A DNA stretch of 40,337 nt, from assembly GCA_006503475.1 (NCBI GenBank), contig RSEH01000344.1:1-40337 (forward strand), read 5' to 3'. This document shows, in pieces, positions 3,170 through 33,439 of this stretch. The position numbers and the translations under genes were made by a program. The notes under the pieces are model-generated. The model saw only the letters and a list, made by a program, of their open reading frames with translations. It was not told the DNA's origin and made no database searches. The stretch's first letter is position 1; each line of letters starts with the position of its first letter. Source of the DNA: Stentor roeselii (lineage: Eukaryota; Ciliophora; Heterotrichea; Heterotrichida; Stentoridae).

Positions 3170-6052
3170 CTAATTAAGTCCATAAGGAGTTGCAGAGTTG
3201 CTGGTATCCCCATTAAACTTCCACACAAAAATGCCATCAGGTCCAGCAGCACAAGAAATAAGATAATTCCTATCCAGACTGAACCTCAAATGCTGTATCT
3301 GATAAGAATGCCCAATAAACCCTTGAGACCTGAGACTATTCTGCCTAGCTCCATATTCCCAAAGTTTAATCAATTTATCCGACCCACCAGTGACTAAATA
3401 CTTGCTATTCTGAGAAACAGCAAAATCACTGATTTCAGCAGAAGGATGACATCCACTAAACTCTTTAATAAAAATAGCTTCAAATCCATTAAGTCCATAA
3501 AACTTCACCTTATAATCCTGACCATAACTGACAACAAGTAAATCCTGCCCATTAGGAGCGAAAATCATTTTCTGTATCACAAACCCAGCAGTATTTATTC
3601 TGAACTTCTGCGAAAAAGTCTGAACTTCCCAAATAAAAATAATTGAATTGTAAGTCCCTAAAACCGCGAATTGTTTCGAGTCAAAAGAAAAACAAACATC
3701 AACTTTTTCCCCCAGGACCTCAACAGGGATAGTCTTAACCGGCTGGTACTTCCTAAGCGAGTCATAAAGACAAACGACTCCATCTTCACTGGCACTAAGC
3801 AGGAACTTCCCATCAAGTGAATGAACACATTTGACGATTTTCGTTTCATGTTGCAAGAACTCATCTTTCATCGACGTTGTTTCCACTTCAAAGATCCGAA
3901 GACTGCCAGATTCGAATCCACAAGCAAAGAGATTTTGAAGTGGGTGAAAAGAAACAGTAAGAGGAAGGTCTTGAGGAGAAAAGAACTCGAATTGTTCTTC
4001 AAAGTGCTCAGGACTCCAAATTCGTAAAGTTTTGTCTTCAGAGGCTGTGAGCAGCATGCCTGAGGCAGGGTGGATGTCGACTGCGAGGACTGGGGCAGTG
4101 TGAGAGCGAAGCAAGGTGCGGTAGGCGTTGGTCGAGATGTCAAGTGACCCGATGGTGCAGTTGGAAGTTCCACAGACGATGTTGTACCTGTCCATGCTGA
4201 TATCAACGGAAACCACAGGCCCTTCATGTCGCGCTTCTAAGAGATACTCAGAGAAATCTAAAGGCCAAACCCGGAGAAAACAATCATCTGAACCTGTCAC
4301 ACAGTAACCTTCTGCAACCATTATCGAGTTAATCGCAGAATCATGTAACTGAAGTACTCCTTCTAACTCAGTCGATTCATAGTTTATCTGAAATAACATC
4401 CCCTGATTAGAAACCACAAAAATCCTCTTCAAATACGCATCAACTTCTAAACTTTTACTAGTCGATGTGAAAATATCGTAGTCCAGGTCAAGAAACTCAG
4501 AAGCTCTTGCATGATGACTTAAAACAACAGCTTTTCCTGATAAATGGTCTCGATTTATCCTCCAGGACCTGATACTTTCCTTTCCACAGCTCATAAGTCG
4601 CTCACTGTCAATCGGTGAGAATTTTATTGTGTTTATGTGAAAGTTGCTTACTTGCTTCGCTTTGATCTCTGCTGGTTTGCCTTGAGTGATGCCAGTGATG
4701 TCCCAGACGATTATCGTTTCTCGAGCTTTTGTGTCTGTCCCCGCGGTCACCACGTGTTTACAGTCGTGGCTCACGTCGACTGCCTTCAAAGTGCTCAGCT
4801 TGCCGAAGGCGATGAACGTCGGGGCTCGCATTGTTTTTATCTCCCAGACGAGGGTCAGGGCTGGAGAGGCCTGGCCTGAGACGATCAAGGAACCGTTGAG
4901 GCTTAAAGAGTTGATGGGAGCTGTGTGGCCAAATAAAAAATGCTGCTTTCTTGAAACTGGGTTCATTAATACCAATGTGCAACCTGAAGGGTACACGATG
5001 AACTTGGAGGAGGATTGAGTGAAGTCTCGTGGGTAGCAAGTGAAAACGCTTTGTTGTTTCGTCCATTTTACTGTTCTTGAATTGTTACCTGAGTACCCGA
5101 TCACGTGGTTTAAACTCATCAGAGGGTCTGGAAGCATCAGATCTCCGGGTTTTGAAGATTTTTCGGGTTTTTCTTTTATTTCTGGCTTTTCTGGGATCTT
5201 TGGAGATGGTGTTGGACGAGATATGCTTTGGGGCTTTTGATCGATTTTTAGGAGATTTGAGGATTGGTTCTCTGGTTTTGTGGATTCTTTGGTTGGATCG
5301 GATGATGGAGGCTTGAGTTTTGGGGAAGATTCGGGTTTTATTTGGTTTGGAGTTTGGTCTTCTTCTTCGATTAGGGGCTGTGGATGAATCTTTTCGATTA
5401 CTGCGGTTTTTGGTCTGACAAGCCCGGCATCAATGACAGTCCAATCATAAACATCAAGCCAATTCTGTTCTCTAGCAAGTTTAAAGCTCATCTCTTTCGG
5501 TAGATTTCCAGAATGATACATAATATCCGATGTATAAACGCCTTTAACAAACAACGTGGAGCAAATAGTCAAAGACCTCATGGTATGCGCAGTGATATGA
5601 CTTCCCACAAACTTCTGCAAAAGATTTCTAACATCAAGAACAACAACAGTCCACTTATTTCCCAAATGGCAAGAAAGTTGAAGTCCACTATTGGTAAGTT
5701 TTGTTTCTTTATAAATATTGCTGAGAGTTATCCTTAAAGGCTCATCAAGACGAGTTTTTGAATTCGAGATGCTGTATTCGAGGTGAATCGAAAAAAGCTT
5801 CTCAGGGACTTCCAGAAGTTGAAGGTAAACATATTGTCCTGTCAGTCCTAAAGTTTTTAATTGAGACTTCGCTCGCGGGATTTGAATGTAATTCGCCGCT
5901 GAAACTGCACCGGCTAAGCGGAAAACTCGTTTTCCTGTCACTCGGTCTAGGCACTCGTTCACGTCGCCTTCTTTTTGACCTACTCGCCACTCGTTTAGGT
6001 TTACTAGTTTGAAGATATCGACAAATGGGTGTTGCCACAGTTCTGCTTTCAT
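3170..6052 (-). CDS. WDR90: WDR90/POC16-like protein: CFAP20-type N-terminal domain plus WD40 propellers
   Basis: A single 960-codon frame. Residues 1 to about 190 form a CFAP20/DUF667-like domain: WQHPFVDIFK at the start, then VSAANYIQIP and LGLTGQYVYLQ, matching the start of WDR90/POC16. A Pro/Lys/Ser-rich linker covers about 215-330. Residues 345-955 contain many WD40 repeats (for example SEDKTLRIWSP, GSDDCFLRVWPL, GGSDKLIKLWEY, with GH and WD-type ends), probably two propellers. In other organisms WDR90/POC16 localises to the inner wall of centrioles and binds microtubules through its CFAP20-like domain; a basal-body role here is inference. At 960 residues it is much shorter than vertebrate WDR90 (about 1750), so later propellers are absent. 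The start at 6052 is supported because family homology begins within the first five residues. Confidence 0.85.
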   Translation of the reverse strand: MKAELWQHPFVDIFKLVNLNEWRVGQKEGDVNECLDRVTGKRVFRLAGAVSAANYIQIPRAKSQLKTLGLTGQYVYLQLLEVPEKLFSIHLEYSISNSKTRLDEPLRITLSNIYKETKLTNSGLQLSCHLGNKWTVVVLDVRNLLQKFVGSHITAHTMRSLTICSTLFVKGVYTSDIMYHSGNLPKEMSFKLAREQNWLDVYDWTVIDAGLVRPKTAVIEKIHPQPLIEEEDQTPNQIKPESSPKLKPPSSDPTKESTKPENQSSNLLKIDQKPQSISRPTPSPKIPEKPEIKEKPEKSSKPGDLMLPDPLMSLNHVIGYSGNNSRTVKWTKQQSVFTCYPRDFTQSSSKFIVYPSGCTLVLMNPVSRKQHFLFGHTAPINSLSLNGSLIVSGQASPALTLVWEIKTMRAPTFIAFGKLSTLKAVDVSHDCKHVVTAGTDTKARETIIVWDITGITQGKPAEIKAKQVSNFHINTIKFSPIDSERLMSCGKESIRSWRINRDHLSGKAVVLSHHARASEFLDLDYDIFTSTSKSLEVDAYLKRIFVVSNQGMLFQINYESTELEGVLQLHDSAINSIMVAEGYCVTGSDDCFLRVWPLDFSEYLLEARHEGPVVSVDISMDRYNIVCGTSNCTIGSLDISTNAYRTLLRSHTAPVLAVDIHPASGMLLTASEDKTLRIWSPEHFEEQFEFFSPQDLPLTVSFHPLQNLFACGFESGSLRIFEVETTSMKDEFLQHETKIVKCVHSLDGKFLLSASEDGVVCLYDSLRKYQPVKTIPVEVLGEKVDVCFSFDSKQFAVLGTYNSIIFIWEVQTFSQKFRINTAGFVIQKMIFAPNGQDLLVVSYGQDYKVKFYGLNGFEAIFIKEFSGCHPSAEISDFAVSQNSKYLVTGGSDKLIKLWEYGARQNSLRSQGFIGHSYQIQHLRFSLDRNYLISCAAGPDGIFVWKFNGDTSNSATPYGLN

Positions 6053-6403: not shown

Positions 6404-8347
6404 TTAAGGAGAGTTCTTAATTTTCGCAATATAACCTAAAATCTCATTATCCAGGTCTTCCTGCATGTTCAATATTTTGGCATAATCGTCTTCATCAACA
6501 ATTGCATGTATTTCATGATGGTCAATAACTCGCTCCTGAAGGTCCATAGAAGAAACAGAAGAAAATTCATTTTCACTGCAGGCGAATCCTAAAAACTGGT
6601 CTTCATTGTCTTGTTCTTCAAACTCTTCGATATGAGAATCTCCTTCAAGAGAATCTTCGAATTTTAAGCTCACTGGCTTTATCTGCAAGTCGATGTTGAG
6701 GACTTTTGAAAAGACTGACTTTTCTGTTGAGATTACCTTGTCGAACTCAGTGTCGTTTAAAAGTAGTTCTGATAAAGTTTTGTGTTTTAAGTGCTTTTGG
6801 ATGGATTTGTTTGAGAATTTTGTTAGACTTGGAATCTTGTAGATTTTTCCGCAGGATTTTAGAAGAGTCCAGATCATTAGAACGAGATATGGACTTTTTG
6901 TAAGGTCCTCTTCCAAAATCGACCTGATTTTAATAATAAGAGAAAATATTACAGGAACATGCGAAACTGACCCTTGATTAATAACATCTAATATGAGTTT
7001 CAAAGCAATTTTGCAAACCTTATTATTAAGCTGTTCATTTTTCAGCACATGTATAATCATCGAAAATAAAGGATACACCTCAAGTTTGGTAAAAGCCAAA
7101 TTTTTCGCAAGCCTTTCCACCAAAAACGCAAGATTCTACTTAAACCTTACCTTAAACACGAATTCCGAGTAATTTTCCTTAACATCCGCAATACATTCAA
7201 ACACAACCTCAACAACACTCTGCACAAAAAGTGTCTGAGTCTTTTTTTTCTTCATTTCAAAAGTTATTCTCGTATTACATTCCCCAAGAGCATTGAAAAA
7301 CTGATTCTTTTTCTCAGTTCCAATTAAAATATCCCGATAAAGCCTAAAAAAGCTTAAAACATCAACTTTTTGGCTCCAAAGTCTTAAAACCTGTTGCGCG
7401 ACTTGTCCATCAGCAAGATCCAATTTTTTAATGAATTTTTTGAACTTATCTGAAAAGTTGATAGTGTTGACACTCTCCTGATTTTCCAAGACAACAATGA
7501 GACATTCACCGATATTGACAGGATTCGTTGTTTTATTGCTTAAAGCGTAGTCAGTCATCAGTCTTATTATCACAGAGCCCTGGTCGTCTAGTTTGAATGT
7601 CACTGACTTAAAAATCTGAATCGCTCCTCTTCCCCAGGCTTCTTTTTTGTGAAGGAAATTTAAAAGAAATTTGAAGAACTCGTCGCGAATCATACCGAAT
7701 TCGAAGAGTTCTTTGCAGAAGGTTTTTAAGAGATGGACTTCGTCTTCGAATTCTCCTGATTCGATTATTCTTTCTAGGATTAGACTTGTTAGTTTTTTCC
7801 AATCGAAGGCGTTGTTTTCGGCTATTTTTGTGTGGATTGGGACTAGCAGGCTTTGGAGAAGGTTGATTTCTAAATTTGTTAGGTTTTTAGGCTCGGTTAG
7901 GTAGCGGAGAATTTCATTTAATATGTCTTCTAGGGTGTTCGCCTCGTCATCTGGGTACAAAGAAGTAGTAGTTTTAAGAGTTTCATAAACTTCAGTCTTA
8001 ACATTAGAAAAATAAGGAAGTTTAAGTATTTTCAATATGCACATATAAGTCACATGTAAAAATTCCTTAAGTACCTCACTCATGGACTTGAGTGCCAACA
8101 AGATAATAGTGCAAGTCCTTTCCGAGTCAGCAGCCAACCGACTGACCATGATTTTAAACTCATCCACACACTGAGGAATTTGCGAGCGTCGGTCTTTGAG
8201 GTACTCACAAAGCTTGAGTCCCTTGTTCCTGCAGTAAGACTCAGTGATCATCATAGGGGCCTGACTGAAAACATTCTCAATTCGTTCCTTGAGTGTCTGC
8301 TGTTTACGGAAAGGTCTACAGCAAAGTCTTCCACACTGAGAACCCAT
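6404..8347 (-). CDS. EFR3-like plasma-membrane scaffold protein (two exons)
   Basis: Exon 1 is 8347-7151 and exon 2 is 7135-6404; the 15-nt intron 7136-7150 removes an in-frame TAG and joins FVFK to NLAFLVERLA, giving 642 residues ending at TAA. The N-terminus MGSQCGRLCC has Gly2 and a cluster of cysteines, suggesting lipid modification (myristoyl and/or palmitoyl). It is followed by KERIENVF and a long series of alpha-helical, ARM/HEAT-like segments, and the tail is acidic (about residues 555-600). This layout resembles EFR3, the palmitoylated anchor that recruits the type III PI4-kinase complex (TTC7/FAM126) to the plasma membrane. The match rests on the N-terminal Cys pattern and helical organisation, so the name is tentative. 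It is divergently arranged with the next gene, only 20 bp between start codons. Confidence 0.6.
7136..7150 (-). other. 15-nt spliceosomal intron in the EFR3-like gene
   Basis: Reads GTAAGGTTTAAGTAG on the minus strand: GTA start, TAG end, A at position 10. It lies in phase 0 after AAG. Removing it deletes an in-frame stop and joins two frames of 399 and 243 codons. Confidence 0.93.
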
Positions 8348-15118: not shown

Positions 15119-17485
15119 CTAGTCTTGATGATTAGCTCCAGCTTCTAAAGTGCTGATGATACTTGTATATCTTTTCTTTTCTTCTTCATTTTTCGCCTTC
15201 AATTCCTCGACCTCCTGCTCCAAAAACTCAATCTTCTGAACTAAAATCGCATTATCCTGTGCCCAGATAGCCATATCATTTCTCAAAAGCTCATCCGAAT
15301 TTCTTAATTTTTTTTCAGTTTCGCTAAGCCTAGCCCTGAGTCTAGAAGTAGAAACTTTATAATCCTGTTCAATTTTTTCTATTTTTTTTACATAAAAAGC
15401 TTCTTTTTCCACAAGCTGAGCCTTGAGTTCAATATTTTCCATTTCAATTTTTCCCTTAAAATTTTCAAATTCTGTTTTAGTTTCATTAAGCAAAGCTTGA
15501 ACCTGTTCTAAAAGTGCTTCTTTAAGTTCAACTTCATTTTCAAGTTCATTATTTTCCTTATTTTTTTCATTGATTCTTTCATTAAGCTTTTCAATCTGCT
15601 GTTCGTATTTCGCCTGAAGTGCCTTCTGTGCCTGTGACTGTTCAGCTCTGAACTCTTTGAGTCTTTCTGAGTAGTTCCTGTCCTTCGCCTTGAACTCCTC
15701 AAGAGAAGTTTCAGTGAATGAAAGTTTTTGCTCAAGAAGAGCTTTCTGGTCCTCGACTTCAGACAAGGCGTTATTATGACTTCTCTGCAGGTCTTTCATT
15801 GCACTTTCAAGAGCTGAATACTTTACTTTCAACTCTCCCAGTTCTCCTGATTTGTTCCTTTGAAGGTCTTTGACGCTTTGTTCCAGGTCTTCCTTTTGGC
15901 TTTGCAGGGCCAAGACTTGATCCCGAAGGGCATTTTCTTTACTTTGAGAAACTGTTAAATCAGCTGAAACTCTTGAAAGTTGTTTTTCTAAATCGCTTCT
16001 TCCACTGCTGAAGTTTTCTTTCGCTTCTTTAATCTCTGCTGTTAGTTTTTCGTGAAGGTCTTCAAATGCCTGTTTTTCTAGTTTTGCCTCGTTTGAATAG
16101 AAACTGATTAGAAAGTCGGCAGCTTTGTTTGAAATTTCTCGAGCGAAAGTCAGGAAAATTTCGGATTTTAACTGGCCTGGAATGCAACTTTCGAAGTAGT
16201 CTTTTTCGACGAGTTTTAAGGTTTTTTCGAAGAGGTGCATTGAGATGAACTTACCTGATCGGATTTCGGAGTCCAGGCTGGTGTATTGGTCTTTTAGGAA
16301 TGTCATGTAGTGAAGCTTTAGCTCGTATTGGTTTTGAAGTTTGGCCTCGGATAGCTTTTCAGTGATTTGGGATTTGAAGGAGTTTATTAGGTCTTGGTCT
16401 TTGGTTAGTAGGTTTTTTTTTAGGTGTTTTAAACCTTCATCCTTCGCTTCTTGATGAACTGAAATCAATTCAGCTTCTTCCATAGGCAAAACATTATCAG
16501 TGAGTATCTTACTATAAACCTCAACAGCATTTTCAAGTGCTTTCCTATTCGAGTTCTTGCAAATATAATTCCAGCTCGTATCAACATTCGGAATTCCTCC
16601 ATCATTAAAAGCTTTAACACAGTCCTCAAGCAGTTTAACAACAAGTTCCCCACTGACTTCAGTGCCATTAATTTTTTTGGGTTTAGCTTTAAAAGTGATT
16701 TTTTTTCTTAATTCCAAAACTTGTTCAACAAATTTAGGTCTCAAGTCACTTATTTCAAGTTGGTCCAGTTTTTGAAGTTCCAAGTCTTTCACAGTGGGTC
16801 TTATAAGAGGCACACATTCTCTTTCTTGGTAAAAACCTTTCAAGGTGTTCCTGATTCGGTTCTTTTTTTCGACTGCGTCGCTGAAACCTTTTACTTGGTT
16901 CAAGGCTTTTTCGAGATATTCGTTTGGGTTGATTGAGCGCCCGTCTTCGTCTACTAGTTCTAAGCTGAAATCGCGAAGGACCCAGATGAACTTTGGGAAA
17001 AAAGAGGAAGGACTTGATGATTGAACCATTTTGGATAGATTTACTATCAGGGATAAGGAGTCTATTGCACTTTCATCGATTGCTCCTGTTGAGTTGTAGA
17101 TGAAGCAGGAGGATATTATTGAGGCGATGGAAAAGACGCGAGAGTCGTAGTTACTGTCTCGATCTAGACCTCCCATGCCTTCACTATCAATCACTAAAAT
17201 CGAGCATGGAAATCCATCCTCAGTAGTCCCTGAAATTGCTTCCCCCCAGATCCAAAGTCCCTTAGTACACGGATTAACCGTCGGTCCTACTTCAAATCCA
17301 CGATTTCTATCTAGAATGACTCGATTTAATAAATAAGACTTTCCAGTTCTGTAAACTCCGGCGACTGAAACAATAGATAACGGAGCTGGTAACTTACGAA
17401 TAAATGAAAGTGCTTCTTGGTTTAAAATGAACATTTGAGTGTTTTCGTCCATGGTCAAAAGTTCAAAAGCTTTAGGACTGGTCAT
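15119..17485 (-). CDS. Guanylate-binding-protein (GBP)-like large GTPase with long coiled-coil tail
   Basis: A complete 788-residue frame ending TAG. The N-terminal GTPase domain has the GBP-type P-loop GVYRTGKSYLLN (from residue 43), TVNPCTKGLWIW (G2 region), LVIDSEGMGGLDRD (G3, DSEG at 100-103), and WVLRDFSLEL (about 168-177), matching the RD-type G4 motif of GBPs and atlastins. A helical middle domain resembling the GBP helical bundle covers about 280-470, and residues 470-780 form a long coiled coil (repeated Glu/Lys/Leu heptads). GBPs hydrolyse GTP, oligomerise and act on membranes, in animals often against intracellular pathogens; the role here is unknown. It has no C-terminal CaaX box, unlike farnesylated animal GBPs. 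The start is taken at 17485; conserved sequence begins about residue 6. Confidence 0.9.
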   Translation of the reverse strand: MTSPKAFELLTMDENTQMFILNQEALSFIRKLPAPLSIVSVAGVYRTGKSYLLNRVILDRNRGFEVGPTVNPCTKGLWIWGEAISGTTEDGFPCSILVIDSEGMGGLDRDSNYDSRVFSIASIISSCFIYNSTGAIDESAIDSLSLIVNLSKMVQSSSPSSFFPKFIWVLRDFSLELVDEDGRSINPNEYLEKALNQVKGFSDAVEKKNRIRNTLKGFYQERECVPLIRPTVKDLELQKLDQLEISDLRPKFVEQVLELRKKITFKAKPKKINGTEVSGELVVKLLEDCVKAFNDGGIPNVDTSWNYICKNSNRKALENAVEVYSKILTDNVLPMEEAELISVHQEAKDEGLKHLKKNLLTKDQDLINSFKSQITEKLSEAKLQNQYELKLHYMTFLKDQYTSLDSEIRSGKFISMHLFEKTLKLVEKDYFESCIPGQLKSEIFLTFAREISNKAADFLISFYSNEAKLEKQAFEDLHEKLTAEIKEAKENFSSGRSDLEKQLSRVSADLTVSQSKENALRDQVLALQSQKEDLEQSVKDLQRNKSGELGELKVKYSALESAMKDLQRSHNNALSEVEDQKALLEQKLSFTETSLEEFKAKDRNYSERLKEFRAEQSQAQKALQAKYEQQIEKLNERINEKNKENNELENEVELKEALLEQVQALLNETKTEFENFKGKIEMENIELKAQLVEKEAFYVKKIEKIEQDYKVSTSRLRARLSETEKKLRNSDELLRNDMAIWAQDNAILVQKIEFLEQEVEELKAKNEEEKKRYTSIISTLEAGANHQD

Positions 17486-17896
17486 GTTGTTTTATGTTTA
17501 TCAAGATATGGATTCAATTAAACTAAAGCAAGGATTTTCAATTCTAAATTTTCTTATACAATAAAACTCATGAGTTCATATTTATTCAAAAAATATTGAA
17601 CGAGTTTTTAAGTTCCTTTGTAAGAAAAGTGATTTTTTTGAATCATTTTATAAAAATTTTCATTCTTTTATAATTGTAATTAAGTTGTTGTTTCTGGTAA
17701 TAAACCAGTTCATTAAAATATATTAATTTTTAAATTTACAATAAGCCTCCAGAATCAAACAAAGAAAAAGCCTTCTAAAGTAATCCACCTTCTACACCCC
17801 ACAAATAAAATTTTCCATATCGTTAAAATTTCATCCACCTAAATCAAATTTAAACTTTTAATCTAATGACAGCCATTACAAACATTAATACAATAA
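17486..17896. other. Divergent intergenic region
   Basis: About 410 bp between the GBP-like gene (minus) and the protease-like gene (plus). AT-rich on the left, A/C-rich (17740-17896) just before the plus-strand start. No ORF or RNA gene recognised. Confidence 0.5.
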
Positions 17897-25149: not shown

Positions 25150-25560
25150 ATTTCAATAATGCAAATCACTTTCTAATAATTTAATTTGTCACTCACGAAC
25201 AGGATAATTCTACCTTAATTACACACTTTACAAGTAACAGTGAAAGAATATTCACAGTAATGATGGTCGCATTTTAATGAGAAAAGTCGCCCATTTCAAG
25301 TAAATATAAAAAAATCAGCGTAGGATTGAAAAGATTCAAATACCTAGTTTTCTGAAGGCTTCTGAGTGATCGTAGTTGGTATTTTTTGCCTGTATCTACA
25401 CTTAAAAGTAGTTTATATGGTAAAATTACAATCAATTTGATCTTAAAAAGAAACTTAATACTCTTGAGTACAGAAATTTTATCATATCAAGAAGAAGGTG
25501 ATAGAATCATAAACCACTGAGTATTATTAATTTTATCATTATAGAATCAAATTTTAGTTT
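25150..25560 (-). pseudogene. Heavily decayed fourth RBR copy
   Basis: Fragments aligned by eye with the RBR genes to the right. Around 25250-25290, TTCACAGTAATGATGGTCGC corresponds to TTTGCAGTAACGATGGTCGC of the intact copy (reverse-strand codons for CDHRYC; here CDHHYC). From 25355, TCTGAAGGCTTCTGAGTGAT... corresponds to TCCGAAGGCTCTTCGGGTTAT... Further on, GTTTATATGGTAAAATTACA corresponds to GTATTTGGTCAAATTGCC, in the same order and direction. Stops and indels are scattered throughout. The outer limits are approximate. Confidence 0.6.
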
Positions 25561-25763
25561 TATTTGAATATTTGTAAGTGGTAAAAAATGATGATTATAG
25601 TGAATGATTAATCTTAATGATAAGATTAGGTATTTATAAAATACATTCGATACTCAACTTAATTGATATAAGTTTAAACATATCAAATCAAAAGAATCAT
25701 ATCTCTAATTCAATCCAAAAAAATTAAACTTCCCTTTCCCTAAAATTTCTAAATCTATTAATC

Positions 25764-26870
25764 CTACCAAAAGACTAGTTTCTTGAAGAATCCCTTAATC
25801 CTGTTAGAAATAACATCTTTTGTAACGCAATCATGTACCTGATGTTTAGTAAGCAATTTACTTCCACAGTCCCAACAAAAGAAATTCTTCCCAGAGCACA
25901 CATCAGTAGCACAAGTGACATACTTACAAGCCTCATCCTTCATAACAGGAATACTGCACCAAGGACAAATTTTCATAACTCCTTGTTCAATCTGTTCTTT
26001 AATATACGGGTCAGAAAGTGCAACTAAATTTTTCTTCTGTTCACAATTCAGCTTCGGATGGGGGTCATTATTGCATTTAGGACAAAATTTCGCATTACAA
26101 ACTGGACATTCAAAAATTTCTCTATCGACTGAAATAAACTGACTGAACTTACAGTTGATACCTGGTGATCCCTTGCATCTTACATATCTTTCTCCTGATT
26201 TCGCATCAAGACTTCTTAATAAGAAATCATCGTATTTTTCTCTTGTTGACTCGTCGATCAAGCCTAGGATTATATGAGGGTCGACGATTTTTTGGCATTC
26301 TGGACAATTTATTTCGTTGCCGACGTTGCCTTCTTTGATTAAGATCTCGATGCTCATTGAAATACAATCTTTGCAGTAACGATGGTCGCATTCTAATGTT
26401 ATGAAGTCGCTTACTGGTAATTCAAGTCCGCAGATTGGACATGATAGTTTAGGCTCGTATTTTTTACTTACTTCGGAAAGGAGCTTGAAAAATATTTCGT
26501 CTCCTCCGAAGGCTCTTCGGGTTATCTTTGTTGAGATTTTTTTACCGCATTTACAATGGAGAATGTCGTATTTGGTCAAATTGCCTTCAAGTTGATCTGA
26601 AATTAAGGACTCAATACATTTTTGACTGCAGATACAGTGTTTGCAGTCTAGTATCGTTGCAGCCGAACCAATAACAGAACAGCAGATAATGCAAGATCTT
26701 TCCTTTTCTTGAAGTTTTACCCTGAATAAAGAACGAGATAAAAGAGAAGTATATTCGATAAAGACTTGCTTGTTGTCCTGAACTGATGATGGATTTTTCA
26801 AAATTTCATTCAACTGCTCTTGAAGAGTCATCATTCTTATGTACTCTTGCTGGTTGATTAATTTCGTCAT
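25764..26870 (-). CDS. RBR-type E3 ubiquitin ligase, copy 1 (complete, catalytic Cys present)
   Basis: A complete 368-residue frame ending TAG. An N-terminal RING-like zinc module (C60-C63, DCKHCIC at 75-81, C85, C106, C108) is followed by RING1 (C144 to C192: CPICGLELPVSDFITLECDH, with CDHRYCKDC after), an IBR (about C232 to C276: CPVCNAKFCPKC) and RING2 (C302 to C348: CPWCSIPVMKDEACKYVTC, then FCWDCG). RBR ligases take ubiquitin from E2 onto a RING2 cysteine and pass it to a substrate; here that cysteine is Cys315 in DEACKYVTC, aligned with GGCxHMxC of parkin/HHARI. No membrane helix or UBA domain. It is the only intact catalytic copy of the tandem array. The start ATG is shared with the other copies. 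Confidence 0.92.
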   Translation of the reverse strand: MTKLINQQEYIRMMTLQEQLNEILKNPSSVQDNKQVFIEYTSLLSRSLFRVKLQEKERSCIICCSVIGSAATILDCKHCICSQKCIESLISDQLEGNLTKYDILHCKCGKKISTKITRRAFGGDEIFFKLLSEVSKKYEPKLSCPICGLELPVSDFITLECDHRYCKDCISMSIEILIKEGNVGNEINCPECQKIVDPHIILGLIDESTREKYDDFLLRSLDAKSGERYVRCKGSPGINCKFSQFISVDREIFECPVCNAKFCPKCNNDPHPKLNCEQKKNLVALSDPYIKEQIEQGVMKICPWCSIPVMKDEACKYVTCATDVCSGKNFFCWDCGSKLLTKHQVHDCVTKDVISNRIKGFFKKLVFW

Positions 26871-26999
26871 TTATAGAACATTTAGTTTAGAGAAAATGGA
26901 AGAGATTATCTTGCAGGAAATTCAATAAGATGTGAATAAATTCCAAAAGAGATACCTTATAATAGTTTTTCTGTAGTAAAATATATAAATTAATAGAAT
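26596..26999. repeat. 404-bp identical tract, copy A (pairs with 29257-29660)
   Basis: Every base from 26596 to 26999 equals 29257-29660 by direct comparison, covering the first about 90 codons of the RBR gene and about 130 bp of 5' flank. Outside it, the two units differ at many positions. This is the signature of a gene-conversion tract between tandem copies. Confidence 0.85.
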
Positions 27000-28435
27000 G
27001 ATGTATAATCTTGTGAAAACTCTCAACGAAATAGTTATAAATATAATTAAAATTTTATATCTATTCTTTTATGTAATTTCAAATTATAATTCTCTCAAGA
27101 ACCCTTAATTTTTATGAATGTTAAGCTGAGTCAATTATCGATCACAATTATATGTAAATCTGATCTAAAAAGATAATCAGAATGGATAGCCTCGTTAATT
27201 TCGAAGAAATAACTGAGCTATTTTCCATAAGTCACTTCCAAAAATACTTAGAAATATCAAATAAACCACAAAAGACTCGAAAAATTATATAATCAACTTC
27301 CTTCTAATTTCAATACGATATCAATCTATAGAAAGTAATAATACCTTATATATTTTTTCAAAAAATCTACAAAATTAAGTTCATTTCTAAAGTTTCCTGA
27401 AACAAGGTAATTTCCATGTTCTACAAAAGAAGATATTTTCACTCTAGATGACGATCTCAATTAGATCTTTCTCATAATTAGACAAACCTGAGTGAACTTT
27501 ACTGCCAGACTTTGATCGACCTTGAGACACAATCATTCCAGTAATCTCTGCAAAATGCGGAAAATTGTTCTAAGAAAAAGGAAAACAAACCCTTTTGAAA
27601 AAGAAAACCTTATCAACACTTATCAAGAAGGCAAGTCAGATCTTTCATGAATTCATTCGTAAAAATTTTCAAAGGGCTTCAATATTAGATCATGCAAGAA
27701 AAGTTTAGAATGATTTACCAGGTAAGCGAAAAATGATTCAGTTTAAACAAGGAAAAGCTTTTGAGGATAATCGAGACTTTTTTATGAGAACATTAGAAAT
27801 TTTTGATGTGATGGAAATTTCGACTCTGCCTGATAAAAAACCTTGAAAAAGTTTAAAGATTCACTCTTTTTCATTGAAATATTAAAAAGATGTAAAGGTG
27901 ATAAGATTTCACTTTTATAGTTATTTATAATTTAAAAGATTTGAAATCAGGTCAAATTAGGAATTTTTTAACATATTCAAAAAACTCTTCAGAAGTTTGA
28001 ATGACTATTCTGAACTTTTGGAAGCTTCTGTAGAAAAATATCCTTTAAATTTCAATAGTTTGACAAGTCCTATCAACCTGACTACTGAATTTGTTCAGTT
28101 TTTGTTGTATTAAAATTATTGAATACAAAGCCCATGTAGGAAAAGTCAGGGCTTCATAGCTTTAGATGTCATCGGAACAAAGATGAAGCGATTTAAATTT
28201 CGACAGAGAAAATTTTCACTATTGAAATAATTGGCTTTCAGGATAATAAAATGATTTGGGTTTTCATATCAGGCGGCTCGACTACACCTTTGACTGTCAA
28301 CAGTTTTGCATGATTAAAGGAGAGTTATATACTTTTCGGAGAAAAAAGATTCGGGACTCTGAGACGGGCTCTATACTGAATCCTAAAAGAAACTTTCCCT
28401 GTAGCTTTCAATTAATCAATTTAACTAACTTTATC
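26871..28435 (+). pseudogene. 5' flank of RBR copy 1 with a decaying plus-strand reading frame
   Basis: This 1.56-kb flank carries remnants of a plus-strand gene. ATG at 27182 opens MDSLVNFEEITELFSISHF and stops after 36 codons. Further coding-like pieces follow in shifting frames, e.g. FKQGKAFEDNRDFFMRTLEI near 27740-27800, and near 27990-28110 LNDYSELLEASVEKYPLNF with SPINLTTEFVQFL after it. A last piece at 28256-28450 (FCMIKGELYTFRRKKI) may be its end. The same pieces recur in the flank of copy 2, so the gene was already decaying, or decayed in parallel, after duplication. I do not recognise the family; no transposase motif is visible. The ends are approximate. Confidence 0.5.
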
Positions 28436-29531
28436 CTACCAAAACATTAATTTTTTGAAGAAACCTTTAATCCTGTTAACAAGTACATCTTCTGTATAGC
28501 ATTCATGAGGTTGATGCCTAGAATTCAATTTTTTTCCACAGTCCCAACAAAAGTTTTTCTTTCCAATACACAAATCACTAATACAATTATAATACTTGTC
28601 ACCCTCATCCTTCAGAACAGGAAATTTGCACCAAGGACAAAATTTCATGTTTCCTTTTTCAATCTGTTCTTTAAGAAAAGGGTCAGATAACACTAACGAC
28701 TTTAACATCTGCTCGCAAGTCATCTCCGGATGCGGGTCACGTTTGCACTTAGGACAAAATTTCGCATTACAAACTTTGCACTCAAAAATTTCTCTATCGA
28801 CCGAAATGAACTGACTGAAGTTGCAGTCGATGCCAGGTGATCCCTTGCATCTGACAAATCTTTCTTTTACTTCCTCCATTTAAGAAATCTTCATATATCT
28901 TTCTTGTCGAATCGTCAATTGAGTATATTATTGAATAAGGTTCAACCAGATTTAGGCACTTAGGACAATTTATTTGATTTCCGAGATTGCCTTGCTGAAT
29001 CAAGATCTCAACACTTGTTGAAATACAATCTTTGCAGTAACGATGGTCGCATTCTAATGTTATGAAGTCGCTTACTGGTAATTCAACTCCGCAGATTGGA
29101 CATGTTAGTTTAGGCTCGTATTTTTTACTTACTTTTGAGAAATGCTTGAAAAATTTTTCATCTCCTCCGAAGGCTGTTCGAGTTATCTTTGTTGAGATTT
29201 TTTTACCGCATTTACAATGGAGAATGTCGTATTTGGTCAAATTGCCTTCAAGTTGGTCTGAAATTAAGGACTCAATACATTTTTGACTGCAGATACAGTG
29301 TTTGCAGTCTAGTATCGTTGCAGCCGAACCAATAACAGAACAGCAGATAATGCAAGATCTTTCCTTTTCTTGAAGTTTTACCCTGAATAAAGAACGAGAT
29401 AAAAGAGAAGTATATTCGATAAAGACTTGCTTGTTGTCCTGAACTGATGATGGATTTTTCAAAATTTCATTCAACTGCTCTTGAAGAGTCATCATTCTTA
29501 TGTACTCTTGCTGGTTGATTAATTTCGTCAT
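28436..29531 (-). pseudogene. RBR-type E3 ubiquitin ligase, copy 2 (frameshifted, catalytic Cys replaced by Asp)
   Basis: Two overlapping frames cover the gene: 29531-28794 encodes the N-terminal RING-like module and RING1, and 28879-28436 encodes the IBR and RING2. Compared with copy 3, about 8 bp are missing around 28864-28877 (GGAGGAAGTAAAAG here, against GGAGGAATGGAGAAAGTAAAAG), which shifts the frame after EDFLNGG. No GTA...TAG intron of 15-16 nt can repair it. If expressed, the first frame gives a 245-residue protein ending soon after RING1, without IBR or RING2. In RING2 the catalytic position reads DEGDKYYNC, Asp for Cys, so even a repaired frame would lack the usual catalysis. Its first about 90 codons are identical to copy 1, while later parts are closer to copy 3. 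Confidence 0.85.
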
Positions 29532-29660
29532 TTATAGAACATTTAGTTTAGAGAAAATGGAAGAGATTATCTTGCAGGAAATTCAATAAGATGTGAATAA
29601 ATTCCAAAAGAGATACCTTATAATAGTTTTTCTGTAGTAAAATATATAAATTAATAGAAT
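29257..29660. repeat. 404-bp identical tract, copy B (pairs with 26596-26999)
   Basis: Identical to 26596-26999 at an offset of 2661 bp. The first mismatches bounding it are G29256 versus A26595, and A29661 versus G27000. Confidence 0.85.
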
Positions 29661-31140
29661 AATGTATAATCTAGTTAAAACTCTCACCCAAATTACTCAT
29701 AAATATAATTTAAACCTTATATCTATTCGTTTATGAAATTTCAAATTATAATTCTCTTAAGAACCCCTTATTTTTTATGAATGTTAAGCTGAGTCAATTA
29801 TCGATCACAATTATACATAAATCTATTCTAAAAAGATAATCAGAATGGATAGCCTCGTTAATTTCGAAGAAATAACTGAGCTATTTTCCATAAGTCACTT
29901 CCAAAAGACTTAAAAATATCAAATAAATCACGAAAGACTCAAAAACTTGTATAATCAACTTCCTTCTAATTTCAATACGATATCAATCTACAGAAAGTAA
30001 TAATACCTGAGATATTTTTTCAAAAATCTACAAAATTAAGTTCATTTCTAAAGTTTCCTGAAACAAGGTAATTTCCATCTCCTACAAAAGAAGGTATTTT
30101 CAGTCTAGATGACGATCTCAATTAGATCTTTTCCATAATTAGACAAGCTGAGTGAACTTTATTACCAGACTCTTGATCGACCTTGAGACACAATCATTCC
30201 AGTAATCTCTGCAAATTGCGAAAATTGTTCTAAGAAAAGGAAAACTAACCCTTTCGAAAAAGAAAACCTAATCGGTGCTTATCATAAGATAAATCAAATC
30301 CTTCATGAATTCATTGGTAAAAATTTTCAAAGGGCTTCAATATTTGATCATGCAAGATAAGTTAGAATGATTTACCAGGTAAGCGAAAAGTGATTCAGTT
30401 TAAACAAGGAAAAGCTTTTAAGGATAGTCGAGACGTTTTTTTTTAGACATAAGAAATTTTTGATGTGATGGAAATTTCAACTCTGCCTAATAAAAACTTT
30501 GAAAAAGTTTAAAGATTCACTCTTTTCATTGAAATATTTAAAAAAGATGTAAAAGGTGATAAGATTTCACTTTTTATGGTTTTTTATAATTTAAAAGATT
30601 TCAAATCAGGTCATATTAGGAATATTTTAACGTATTCGAAATACTTTTAAGGAAGTTTGAATGACTGTTCTGAACTTTTGGAAGCTTCTGTAGAAAAATA
30701 TTATTTAAATTTCAATAGTTTGGCAAGTCCTATCAACCTGACTACTGTATTTGTTCAGTTTTGTTGTACTAAAATTCATTGAAATACAAAAGTCCATGTA
30801 GGAAAAGTCAGGGCTTCATAGCTCTAGATGTCATCGGAGTAAAGATGAAGCGATAAATAGTTCAACTCAGAAATTTTCACTATTTAAATAATTGGCCTTC
30901 AGGATGATTAAATGCTTGGGGTTTATGCCAGGCGGCTTGACTACACCTATTGACTGTCAATAGTTTTGCATGATTAAAGGAGAGTTACATAATTTTTAGA
31001 GAGAAAAGACTCGAGACAGCTCTATACTAGACCCATATACGGGTACAAACTCATGATTTCAAATAAAAGTAATATAATTGTAATGAAATACATATGGTTT
31101 TATTACAATTCTGTAATCAAATTTACCTATAGCTTTCAAT
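29532..31140 (+). pseudogene. 5' flank of RBR copy 2 with a second copy of the decaying plus-strand reading frame
   Basis: Collinear with the flank of copy 1 over about 1.5 kb at roughly 90% identity. It repeats the ATG start (29845, MDSLVNFEEITELFSISHF) and later pieces (near 30660-30770: LNDCSELLEASVEKYYLNF, then SPINLTTVFVQF), with different stops and indels. Independent lesions on top of shared ones show neutral decay since duplication. Near its end it has about 95 bp absent from the other flank, containing an inverted repeat (31076-31110, listed separately). Confidence 0.5.
31076..31110. repeat. Short inverted repeat inside flank-specific sequence
   Basis: AATTGTAAT (31076-31084) and ATTACAATT (31102-31110) are perfect inverted arms around a 17-bp spacer; the pairing extends imperfectly into the spacer. 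It lies in about 95 bp (31030-31125) present in this flank and absent from the corresponding place at about 28380-28400. Confidence 0.6.
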
Positions 31141-31163
31141 TAATTAATTCAACTAACTTTATC

Positions 31164-32264
31164 CTACCAAAATATTAATTTTTTGTAGAAACCTTTAATC
31201 CTGTTAACAAGTACATCTTCTGTATAGCATTGATGAAGTTGATTCTTAGAATTCAATTTTTTTCCACAGTCCCAACAAAATCTTCTCCTTCCAATACACA
31301 AATCACTACTACAAATATAATACTTGTAACCCTCATTCTTCAGAACAGGAACGTTGCACCAAGGACAAATTTTCATGTCTCCTTTTTCAATCTGTTCTGT
31401 AATAAAAGGGTCAGATAACGGTAACGACTTTAACATCTGCTCGCAAGTCATCTCCAGATGCGGGTCACTTTTGCACTTAGGACAAAATTTCGCATTACAG
31501 ACTTTGCACTCAAAAACTTCTCTATCGACCGAAATGAACTGGCTGAAGTTGCAGTTGATGCCAGATAATCCCTTGCATCTGACAAATCTTTCTTTTACTT
31601 TCTCCATTCCTCCATCTAAGAAATCTTCATATATCTTTCTTGTCGAATCGTCGATTGAGTATATTATTGAATAAGGTTCAACTAGATTTAGGCACTCAGG
31701 ACAATTTATTTGATTTCCGAGATTGCATTGTTGAATCAAGATCTCAACACTTGTTGAAATACAATTTTTACAGTAACGATGCTCGCATTCTAATGTTATG
31801 AAGTCGCTTACTGGCTTGTCATCATCACAGATTGGACATGTTAGTTTAGGCTCGTATTTTTTACTTACTTTTGAGAAATGCTTGAAAAATTTTTCATCTC
31901 CTCCGAAGGCTGTTCGAGTTATCTTTGTTGAGATTTTTTTACCGCATTTACAATGGAGAATTTCGTATTTGGTCAAATTGCCTTCAAGTTGGTCTGAAAT
32001 TAAAGACTCAATACACTTTTTACTGCAGATACAGTGTTCGCAGTCTAAGATTGTTACAACTGAGCCAATGGGTGAGCTGCAGACCACGCATCTTTCCTTT
32101 TCTTGAACTTTGGCCCTGAATAAAGAACGAGATAAAAGAGAAGTATATTCTATAAAGACTTGCTTTTTGTCCTTAACTGATGATGGATTTTTCATTATTT
32201 CATTCAACTGCTCTTGAAGAGTCATCATTCTTAAGTACTCTTGCTGGTTGATTAAATTTGCCAT
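31164..32264 (-). CDS. RBR-type E3 ubiquitin-ligase-like protein, copy 3 (full length, catalytic Cys replaced by Tyr)
   Basis: A complete 366-residue frame ending TAA, with the same order as copy 1: N-terminal RING-like module (CVVC, DCEHCIC), RING1 (CPICDDDKPVSDFITLECEH), IBR (CKVCNAKFCPKC) and RING2 (CPWCNVPVLKNEGYKYYIC, then FCWDCG). All zinc-ligand cysteines of RING1 and IBR that I can align are kept, but the RING2 catalytic cysteine is Tyr313 (NEGYKYYIC). It should fold and could bind an E2 or substrate but should not form the ubiquitin thioester. Open frame over full length despite this loss suggests selection for a non-catalytic role (inference). The N-terminus is about 90% identical to copy 1; the centre and end match copy 2 most closely. 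Confidence 0.87.
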   Translation of the reverse strand: MANLINQQEYLRMMTLQEQLNEIMKNPSSVKDKKQVFIEYTSLLSRSLFRAKVQEKERCVVCSSPIGSVVTILDCEHCICSKKCIESLISDQLEGNLTKYEILHCKCGKKISTKITRTAFGGDEKFFKHFSKVSKKYEPKLTCPICDDDKPVSDFITLECEHRYCKNCISTSVEILIQQCNLGNQINCPECLNLVEPYSIIYSIDDSTRKIYEDFLDGGMEKVKERFVRCKGLSGINCNFSQFISVDREVFECKVCNAKFCPKCKSDPHLEMTCEQMLKSLPLSDPFITEQIEKGDMKICPWCNVPVLKNEGYKYYICSSDLCIGRRRFCWDCGKKLNSKNQLHQCYTEDVLVNRIKGFYKKLIFW

Positions 32265-33439
32265 TTATAGAATAAGGAAAATGGAAAAATTTAACCTGCA
32301 GGATTCTATAGAAGTGAATGATTTATGATTTCTAGTTAAAGGATTTATGATTGTTAGAATTCGAACATTCCTAATGAATTATTGAATAATACAAAATAAG
32401 TTTTTATGAATTGTGTAATTAGCAACATATGGGCTTGCTAAAAACAAGAAAAGCTTTTAGGACAGTCGAAATACGTTTTTCCAGAAAATTTGTAAATTTC
32501 AGAGAATATGATGAGAATATCAATTCTGCTTAATAAACTCGAAAAACTTTGCCTTTGAATAACAGTAAACTTTAAACTTAGCTTGTTAACAGATAATTAT
32601 ATTCTCGAATCTAAAGGATTATTAATAATTTCTTTTGCCCCTCGGGCCATGAATCTTTTTTTTCCTAATATCCAAGGGGTTCAACGATATCTATTGTGAC
32701 AATTGCGAGATATCGTATTTAAAATCTCAGGGAAAGTGCATTAAGATTATGGTTTAGATTAATTAAGTTTGACGATATTAATTAAGATTGGAATAATAAA
32801 TGGTTTCATGTTTAATTATCTGTGTTTTAATAAATTTTGGGATCAGATAGAATATAATTTTTATAGATGAGTTTAAGCTTCAGATGAAAATTATTTGTAT
32901 TTCTTTATACTGCGTGATCTTTACTGATAAAAGTATCTCAATAGTCTATGATCATACTATATCTAAATATGAACGAACAAAAAGTATCTGCTACTATTTT
33001 TAAAATCTATTACATATAAATATGGGTTTATGAATACAAATAGTAAATAAAATAAAGATTAAGACCAAAAGTATCACACTATTTATAAATAAATACTATT
33101 TTCAGTTAATTTTTTTATTATGACATCATTAATTTCCTGATTCGTAGTGTTTTTATAATCAATATTTGATTTATTTGAATATCTCTAAATTTAAAAGTCT
33201 ATTGGTTAATACATGAAAATTGTACATTTTAAACAATCAGAAAGACTTGAAAACGATTCAATCTAAAACAATATCTAAAACTATCATGATTTTCCAAATA
33301 AATTTATAAAAATCTTTTATTTATACAAAGAAAACCAAACAGATAAAGTTTTACTCATTTAACTGTCATTTATTCACTTAAAATCTAAAATCTTCATATC
33401 TAAATATAATTAACTATCTAGTTCTATAATAATAATTAA
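32265..33439. other. Intergenic region with fragments of the RBR flank and a zinc-finger remnant
   Basis: The first about 70 bp resemble the 5' flank of RBR copies 1 and 2 (TTTATAGAA start). At 32440-32560, pieces of the decayed plus-strand frame recur (AAGAAAAGCTTTTAGGACAG and onward), so this flank is a shortened version of the other two, with several hundred bp lost. At 32634-32745 a zinc-finger-like remnant is visible: CPSGHESFF, then after a slip YCDNCEISYLKSQGKC. The rest (32750-33439) is AT-rich with no ORF or RNA gene seen. Confidence 0.5.

Follow-up and report, generated by a model that had tools for sequence, protein, structure and literature searches.

Among RBR (RING-between-RING) ubiquitin ligases, Arabidopsis ARIADNE12 (ARI12) is described as having serine in place of the RING2 cysteine that forms the thioester, and as missing a zinc ligand as well (PMC4503874). 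According to the available sections of that report, ARI12 carries out monoubiquitination in vitro and is an expressed gene that is induced by ultraviolet-B (UV-B). Recent lineage-specific tandem RBR copies are known in Arabidopsis and rice, with ‘becoming non-functional’ as one explanation offered (PMC2904391), and the expanded family of C. elegans includes three tandem RBR genes, ari-1.1, ari-1.2 and ari-1.3, within about 7 kb (PMC6288150). Here we describe three RBR-type genes arranged in tandem on contig RSEH01000344.1 of Stentor roeselii, all on the minus strand and about 2.7 kb apart from start to start. The window analysed was this entire 40,337-nt contig (C280) of a 44.4-Mb genome in 522 contigs. 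We consider it fairly probable, at roughly 0.75, that the array is a small tandem RBR ubiquitin-ligase family undergoing turnover, in which copy 1 works, copy 2 is a hybrid and copy 3 has decayed.

Copy 1 (25764..26870; this and every other feature of the array lies on the minus strand) encodes 368 amino acids (aa), with a RING-like module followed by RING1-IBR-RING2. A Pfam scan identified a RING finger and an IBR domain in every copy, in the case of copy 2 in its separate pieces. For copy 1, zf-C3HC4 scored 29 bits (cut-off 21) and IBR 27.5 bits (cut-off 24.3), with two IBR stretches. Human ARIH1 (HHARI) was its best sequence match among proteins of solved structure, and a single phmmer alignment of residues 141-335 ran across all three ARIH1 domains (E 1.6e-13); by Pfam and this alignment, RING1, IBR and RING2 follow one another in order. 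Counted along the printed alignment, Cys315 of copy 1 (codon TGT, 25926..25928) falls on the active-site cysteine of ARIH1, residue 357 (PMC5548887, PMC3305615), and copy 1 therefore has the catalytic cysteine of RING2. This residue is described as essential in RBR ligases, with incomplete conservation of the rest of the triad (PMC9834252). Two residues beyond the cysteine, copy 1 has tyrosine and ARIH1 has histidine, which also occurs at this position in 25 of the 57 cysteine-keeping RING2 domains counted in the genome. As the sole copy that keeps the catalytic cysteine, copy 1 is likely to be a working ligase. RING1 would take up ubiquitin-charged conjugating enzyme (E2~Ub), and ubiquitin would then pass to Cys315 in RING2 and from there to the substrate.

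Nothing in the ARIH1 alignment, which begins at residue 141, corresponds to the additional RING-like module at the N terminus of copy 1. By eye, this cysteine-rich module (residues about 58-112; 25767-26870) precedes the RBR part in copy 1 and in nine paralogues from elsewhere in the genome (L013-L019, L021 and L024). Pfam at E 0.1 named no family for it. A predicted structure of copy 1, made with copy 3 as the only other alignment row, had a mean predicted local distance difference test score (pLDDT) of 34.9 and was too poor for use.

Copy 3 (31164..32264) is an open frame of 366 aa that aligns with copy 1 over its full length at 71% protein identity. RING1, IBR and RING2 are again found in order, and all of their cysteines are present. 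The zf-C3HC4 score was 26.5 bits (cut-off 21); IBR scored 21.8 bits in the Pfam scan, below the 24.3 cut-off, and 26.2 bits in the genome search. At the catalytic column copy 3 has tyrosine (Tyr313, codon TAC, 31326..31328) and copy 2 has aspartate (codon GAC, 28598..28600), and all 11 aligned paralogues from outside the array have cysteine. These 11 comprised the seven best-scoring outside places (L013-L019) and four that we chose (L021, L024, L027 and L031); the better-scoring places left outside the alignment were L020, L022, L023 and L025, which keep the cysteine, and L026, which had no RING2 match. A second RING2 residue is also altered in copy 3. Asn341 (codon AAT, 31242..31244) occupies the position of copy 1 His343, a histidine present in 12 of the 14 aligned rows, including copies 1 and 2; the other exception is L024, with tyrosine. 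Its conservation suggests that this histidine binds zinc, in which case copy 3 has probably lost a zinc ligand.

An earlier reading of this DNA, hereafter the original prediction, agrees with these results in part, although most of what it built on the residues does not hold. It had proposed three tandem RBR copies, and they are present at 25764-26870, 28436-29531 and 31164-32264. Its RING2 motifs, DEACKYVTC, DEGDKYYNC and NEGYKYYIC for copies 1 to 3, are exact, the ARIH1 alignment confirms its catalytic column of Cys, Asp and Tyr, and copy 3 is indeed open over 366 codons. The alternative that another conserved cysteine occupies the column in copies 2 and 3 was rejected, as none is found there in the alignments, and the column stands. 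The claim that the surrounding zinc ligands are conserved is correct for the cysteines but not for the RING2 histidine of copy 3. The copy 2 frameshift, its hybrid build and a degraded fourth copy, all described below, were absent from that account. It had also held that the cysteine was lost differently in each sister copy. At the catalytic column, copies 1, 2 and 3 have the codons TGT, GAC and TAC, respectively, the last two bases being common to copies 2 and 3. Since these two copies are sisters over this part of the gene, one loss of cysteine and one further first-base change is the simplest history. From parsimony on this single codon, one loss of the cysteine that preceded the split of copies 2 and 3 is probable; independent losses in the two copies are less simple and were set aside.

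Copy 2 (28436-29531) changes its affinity along its length. Within nucleotides 1-275 of the coding sequence (CDS), copies 1 and 2 are grouped by 32 of 32 informative sites, and at nt 276-440 copies 2 and 3 are grouped by 12 of 13. A patch at nt 441-455 again groups copies 1 and 2 (8 of 9 sites). From nt 456 to the end there are 159 variable sites, at which copies 2 and 3 agree 120 times, copies 1 and 2 19 times and copies 1 and 3 13 times, all three differing at the remaining 7. Copy 3 carries a burst of substitutions in the RING1 loop at 31815-31827 (codons 147-151 as numbered in copy 1); of the 9 variable sites there, 8 are alike in copies 1 and 2. The burst may reflect a multi-base mutation or micro-conversion by another sequence.

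The spacers between copies 1 and 2 (26871..28435) and between copies 2 and 3 (29532..31163) are about 91% alike. They differ at 143 of 1552 sites (9.2%) and by 22 insertions or deletions (indels), yet a 404-nt tract at the starts of copies 1 and 2 is identical (26596..26999, spanning the copy 1 start codon, and 29257-29660), which suggests conversion. Unequal crossing-over between copies 1 and 3, combined with conversion of the 5′ ends, would make copy 2 a hybrid and would explain the mosaic, the tract and the spacers together. The flanks match the spacer in the pattern that this crossover model predicts: downstream of copy 1 no spacer match was better than E 0.034, and upstream of copy 3 only short matches were found (72% over 98 nt, E 1.4e-7, and 78% over 46 nt). 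A genome search, in which match counts are lower bounds, found the spacer nowhere outside the array.

Copy 2 is short of 8 nt relative to copy 3 at about 28880, which shifts the frame and leaves two open reading frames (ORFs). The 5′ ORF (28797..29531, 245 aa on a stop-to-stop reading) is copy-1-like to CDS nt 275 and copy-3-like thereafter, and the 3′ ORF (28436..28879, 147 aa) contains a copy-3-like part of the IBR domain, RING2 and the tail; no single ORF runs through the RBR part. With the frame broken, a full-length protein cannot be made from copy 2. Copy 3 carries two 8-nt units at the deletion site that match at 7 of 8 bases, and the deletion thus appears to lie at a short direct repeat, as slippage deletions do. 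Stentor genes are described as using the standard genetic code, with introns of 15-16 nt (PMC9505925). To restore the frame of copy 2, a tiny intron would have to measure 1 modulo 3; inspection by eye showed a GT...AG stretch of 20 nt at the break and none of 16 nt, and this rescue was rejected.

Evolutionary rates were estimated for codons 93-368 (271 used) with a three-sequence codon model implemented in our own script. With separate branches, the ratio of nonsynonymous to synonymous rates (dN/dS, omega) was 0.34 for the long branch leading to copy 1, 1.04 for that of copy 3 (twice the log-likelihood difference, 2dL, from omega 1 was 0.01) and 1.92 for that of copy 2 (2dL 0.30). Leaving out codons 147-152 gave 1.52 for the copy 3 branch (2dL against 1, 0.34). 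A shared rate for copies 2 and 3 gave omega 1.22, which set them apart from the old branch (p 0.0023 against a single overall rate) but did not depart from 1 (p 0.62). Copies 2 and 3 differ at the three codon positions 18, 15 and 15 times, with 36 changed codons and only 7 silent ones, which gives the test low power; 7 or fewer silent codons had a probability of 0.14-0.31 in a neutral simulation. From these data we conclude that the RBR part of copy 3 has changed without detectable purifying constraint since its split from copy 2, its omega not being different from 1. After 20-25 neutral substitutions, the chance that a frame of 825 nt is still open would be 35-27%. As neutral survival of the frame is this frequent, the openness of copy 3 counts for little as a sign of upkeep.

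The original prediction had offered, as one of two readings, that copies 2 and 3 are decoy pseudo-ligases and had named dN/dS near 1 along copy 3 as the outcome that would count against this idea. Such a value is what we obtained for the RBR part of copy 3, and copy 2 is broken; decoy function found no positive support in this low-power test, although the scarcity of indels, the low divergence and the RING2 changes lean the other way. For copy 3 by itself, the corresponding proposal is that it is a kept pseudo-ligase, whose RING1 and IBR domains would bind E2~Ub or substrates and which, being cysteine-less, would block or guide the partners of copy 1. The 366 open codons and the full set of RING1, IBR and RING2 cysteines fit this proposal, as does the isoleucine of the CPIC motif, which copy 3 keeps at the position of ARIH1 Ile188, a residue required for E2 binding (PMC5548887). 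The lack of detectable purifying constraint argues against it, together with the probable loss of a RING2 zinc ligand and the alteration of the RING1 loop that follows CPIC, at four of five residues’ worth of codons (about 148-151). On balance we regard a kept pseudo-ligase as doubtful.

Several observations nevertheless weigh against simple decay of copy 3, and some of them would suit a retained protein. In their shared part, copies 2 and 3 are separated by one indel, compared with 7.4 expected at the indel-to-substitution ratio of the spacer (P 0.005; 0.02 and 0.07 once scaled for base runs of 5+ and 4+, respectively). Their divergence is 5.9% (48/820), compared with 9.2% in the spacer. Few indels and low divergence imply that the frames were guarded for part of the time, or that they were partly converted. 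Over RING2 and the tail (codons 293-368), a region chosen after the fact, 17 changed codons and no silent ones separate copies 2 and 3; omega was at its bound (p 0.014 against 1), and simulation gave a probability of 0.02-0.035 for no silent codon in this region and of 0.016-0.032 for an equally long run at any place in the part. This excess is a hint of diversifying selection. Over RING1 and IBR there was no such excess (14 changed, 6 silent, omega 0.70). Codons 1-92 are constrained between copies 1 and 3 (omega 0.27, 2dL 10.2), a value that is not divisible between the two lineages. Taken further, the RING2 result could mean that this domain of copy 3, once freed from catalysis, came under diversifying selection as a non-catalytic binding surface, with the pseudo-ligase blocking or guiding copy 1 partners and repeated unequal crossing-over bringing fresh RING2 variants in behind the upstream region of copy 1. 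We think this scenario unlikely.

It is very unlikely that RING1 or the N-terminal RING-like module lets copy 3 act as a plain RING-type ligase or as an adaptor without enzymatic activity, such that the RING2 cysteine became dispensable. Copy 3 has both of its N-terminal cysteine-rich modules intact, but no change in its RING1 points to plain RING function, and in the available sections of one study the HHARI RING1-IBR did not raise E2~Ub reactivity (PMC3305615). An error of sequencing or assembly as the source of the copy 2 frameshift, or of the whole array, is highly improbable: near-identical tandem units are prone to such errors, but the spacers differ by 9.2% and the coding copies by more, making collapse or false duplication unlikely, the deletion lies at a short direct repeat like real slippage deletions, and the Tyr and Asp codons are independent of the frameshift.

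Turnover of a small tandem family with one active gene, which the original prediction had offered as its second possibility, is well supported by the hybrid, the converted tract, the frameshift, the relaxed rates and a relic, with the activity of copy 1 predicted from its sequence. The relic is a degraded fourth copy at 25247..25474, in which two collinear segments (25474-25351 and 25279-25247) match CDS nt 239-366 and 473-505; none of 500 dinucleotide shuffles of the region reached its best single match or its pair score. The search for further copies called for earlier thus yielded this relic and no array copy elsewhere in the genome, where the best outside place had 37% protein identity.

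A profile search of the genome gave 103 IBR matches, more than one per gene. The RING2 census was drawn from 80 loci, several of them overlapping, in which the RING2 profile gave 68 distinct segments; six were removed by hand (four judged to be IBR domains and two cut duplicates), leaving 62. Cysteine was at the catalytic column in 57 of the 62, and the five domains without it were those of copies 2 and 3 and, outside the array, one each on contigs C77 (Ser), C90 (Leu) and C188 (Asn). Losses are undercounted in these figures, as 13 of the 80 loci had no RING2 match at E 0.001 and at least one of these, L047 (C76), shows on visual inspection a RING2-like segment whose residue at the column is Ser. 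Cysteine loss among the RBR proteins of this genome thus appears to be uncommon and is not confined to this array. Open RBR-like ORFs without the cysteine occur at L056 (C77), L058 (C90), L069 (C188) and L047. Clustered RBR genes on C402 (four), C338 (three), C75 (two) and C170 (a pair) keep the cysteine. On contig C122 the neighbours L067, L072 and L075 have an IBR-like zinc module, followed at least in L072 and L075 by a PARP-catalytic-like region (by eye).

Gene turnover in the array might have proceeded as follows. An old duplication would have given rise to copies 1 and 3, and the RING2 cysteine would have been lost once in the copy 3 lineage. Unequal crossing-over between copies 1 and 3 may then have generated hybrid copy 2 and doubled the spacer, with the 5′ part and upstream side of copy 2 coming from copy 1 and its 3′ part and downstream side from copy 3. 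Later conversion could have made copies 1 and 2 alike again at their 5′ ends, and the 8-nt deletion would have broken copy 2. Copy 3 would have stayed open while its RBR part changed under no visible purifying constraint, with loss of a probable zinc-binding histidine, and is presumably inactive.

Elsewhere in the window, 3170-6052 encodes a protein of cilium/centriole type with a CFA20 domain and a WDR90/POC16-like propeller, and 15119-17491 a guanylate-binding-protein-like GTPase (Pfam GBP, E 3.4e-52). Near 7130, two ORFs are separated by a single 15-nt GT...AG stretch that contains an in-frame stop and whose length would suit a Stentor intron. The use of TAA, TAG and TGA as ORF stops follows from the code used in the ORF listing.

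In about 7 kb, the array clearly illustrates the gain and loss of members in a tandem enzyme family, by way of a hybrid gene, conversion, a frameshift and the disappearance of a catalytic residue. It also advises caution: frame and rates should be checked before active-site loss in a tandem copy is called an evolved pseudo-enzyme. If copy 3 is expressed and kept in relatives, it would provide a natural cysteine-less RBR for testing scaffold roles.

Our literature search returned nothing on RBR pseudoligases or on Stentor RBR ubiquitin ligases, and we claim no wider absence. Among described systems, ARI12 resembles copies 2 and 3 in the replacement of its RING2 catalytic cysteine; unlike them, it has a serine, which can form an oxyester, as Asp and Tyr would not be expected to do. 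The Arabidopsis and rice genes share tandem duplication with the array but are from plants, and the available sections of that report (PMC2904391) do not mention loss of the catalytic cysteine. The C. elegans ari-1 trio has the same tandem layout and differs in that the accessible part of its description (PMC6288150) reports no cysteine loss. A replaced RBR cysteine and tandem RBR duplicates are thus both already in print, and the Stentor array is a fresh instance of ordinary gene turnover in which the RING2 changes are the one real curiosity.

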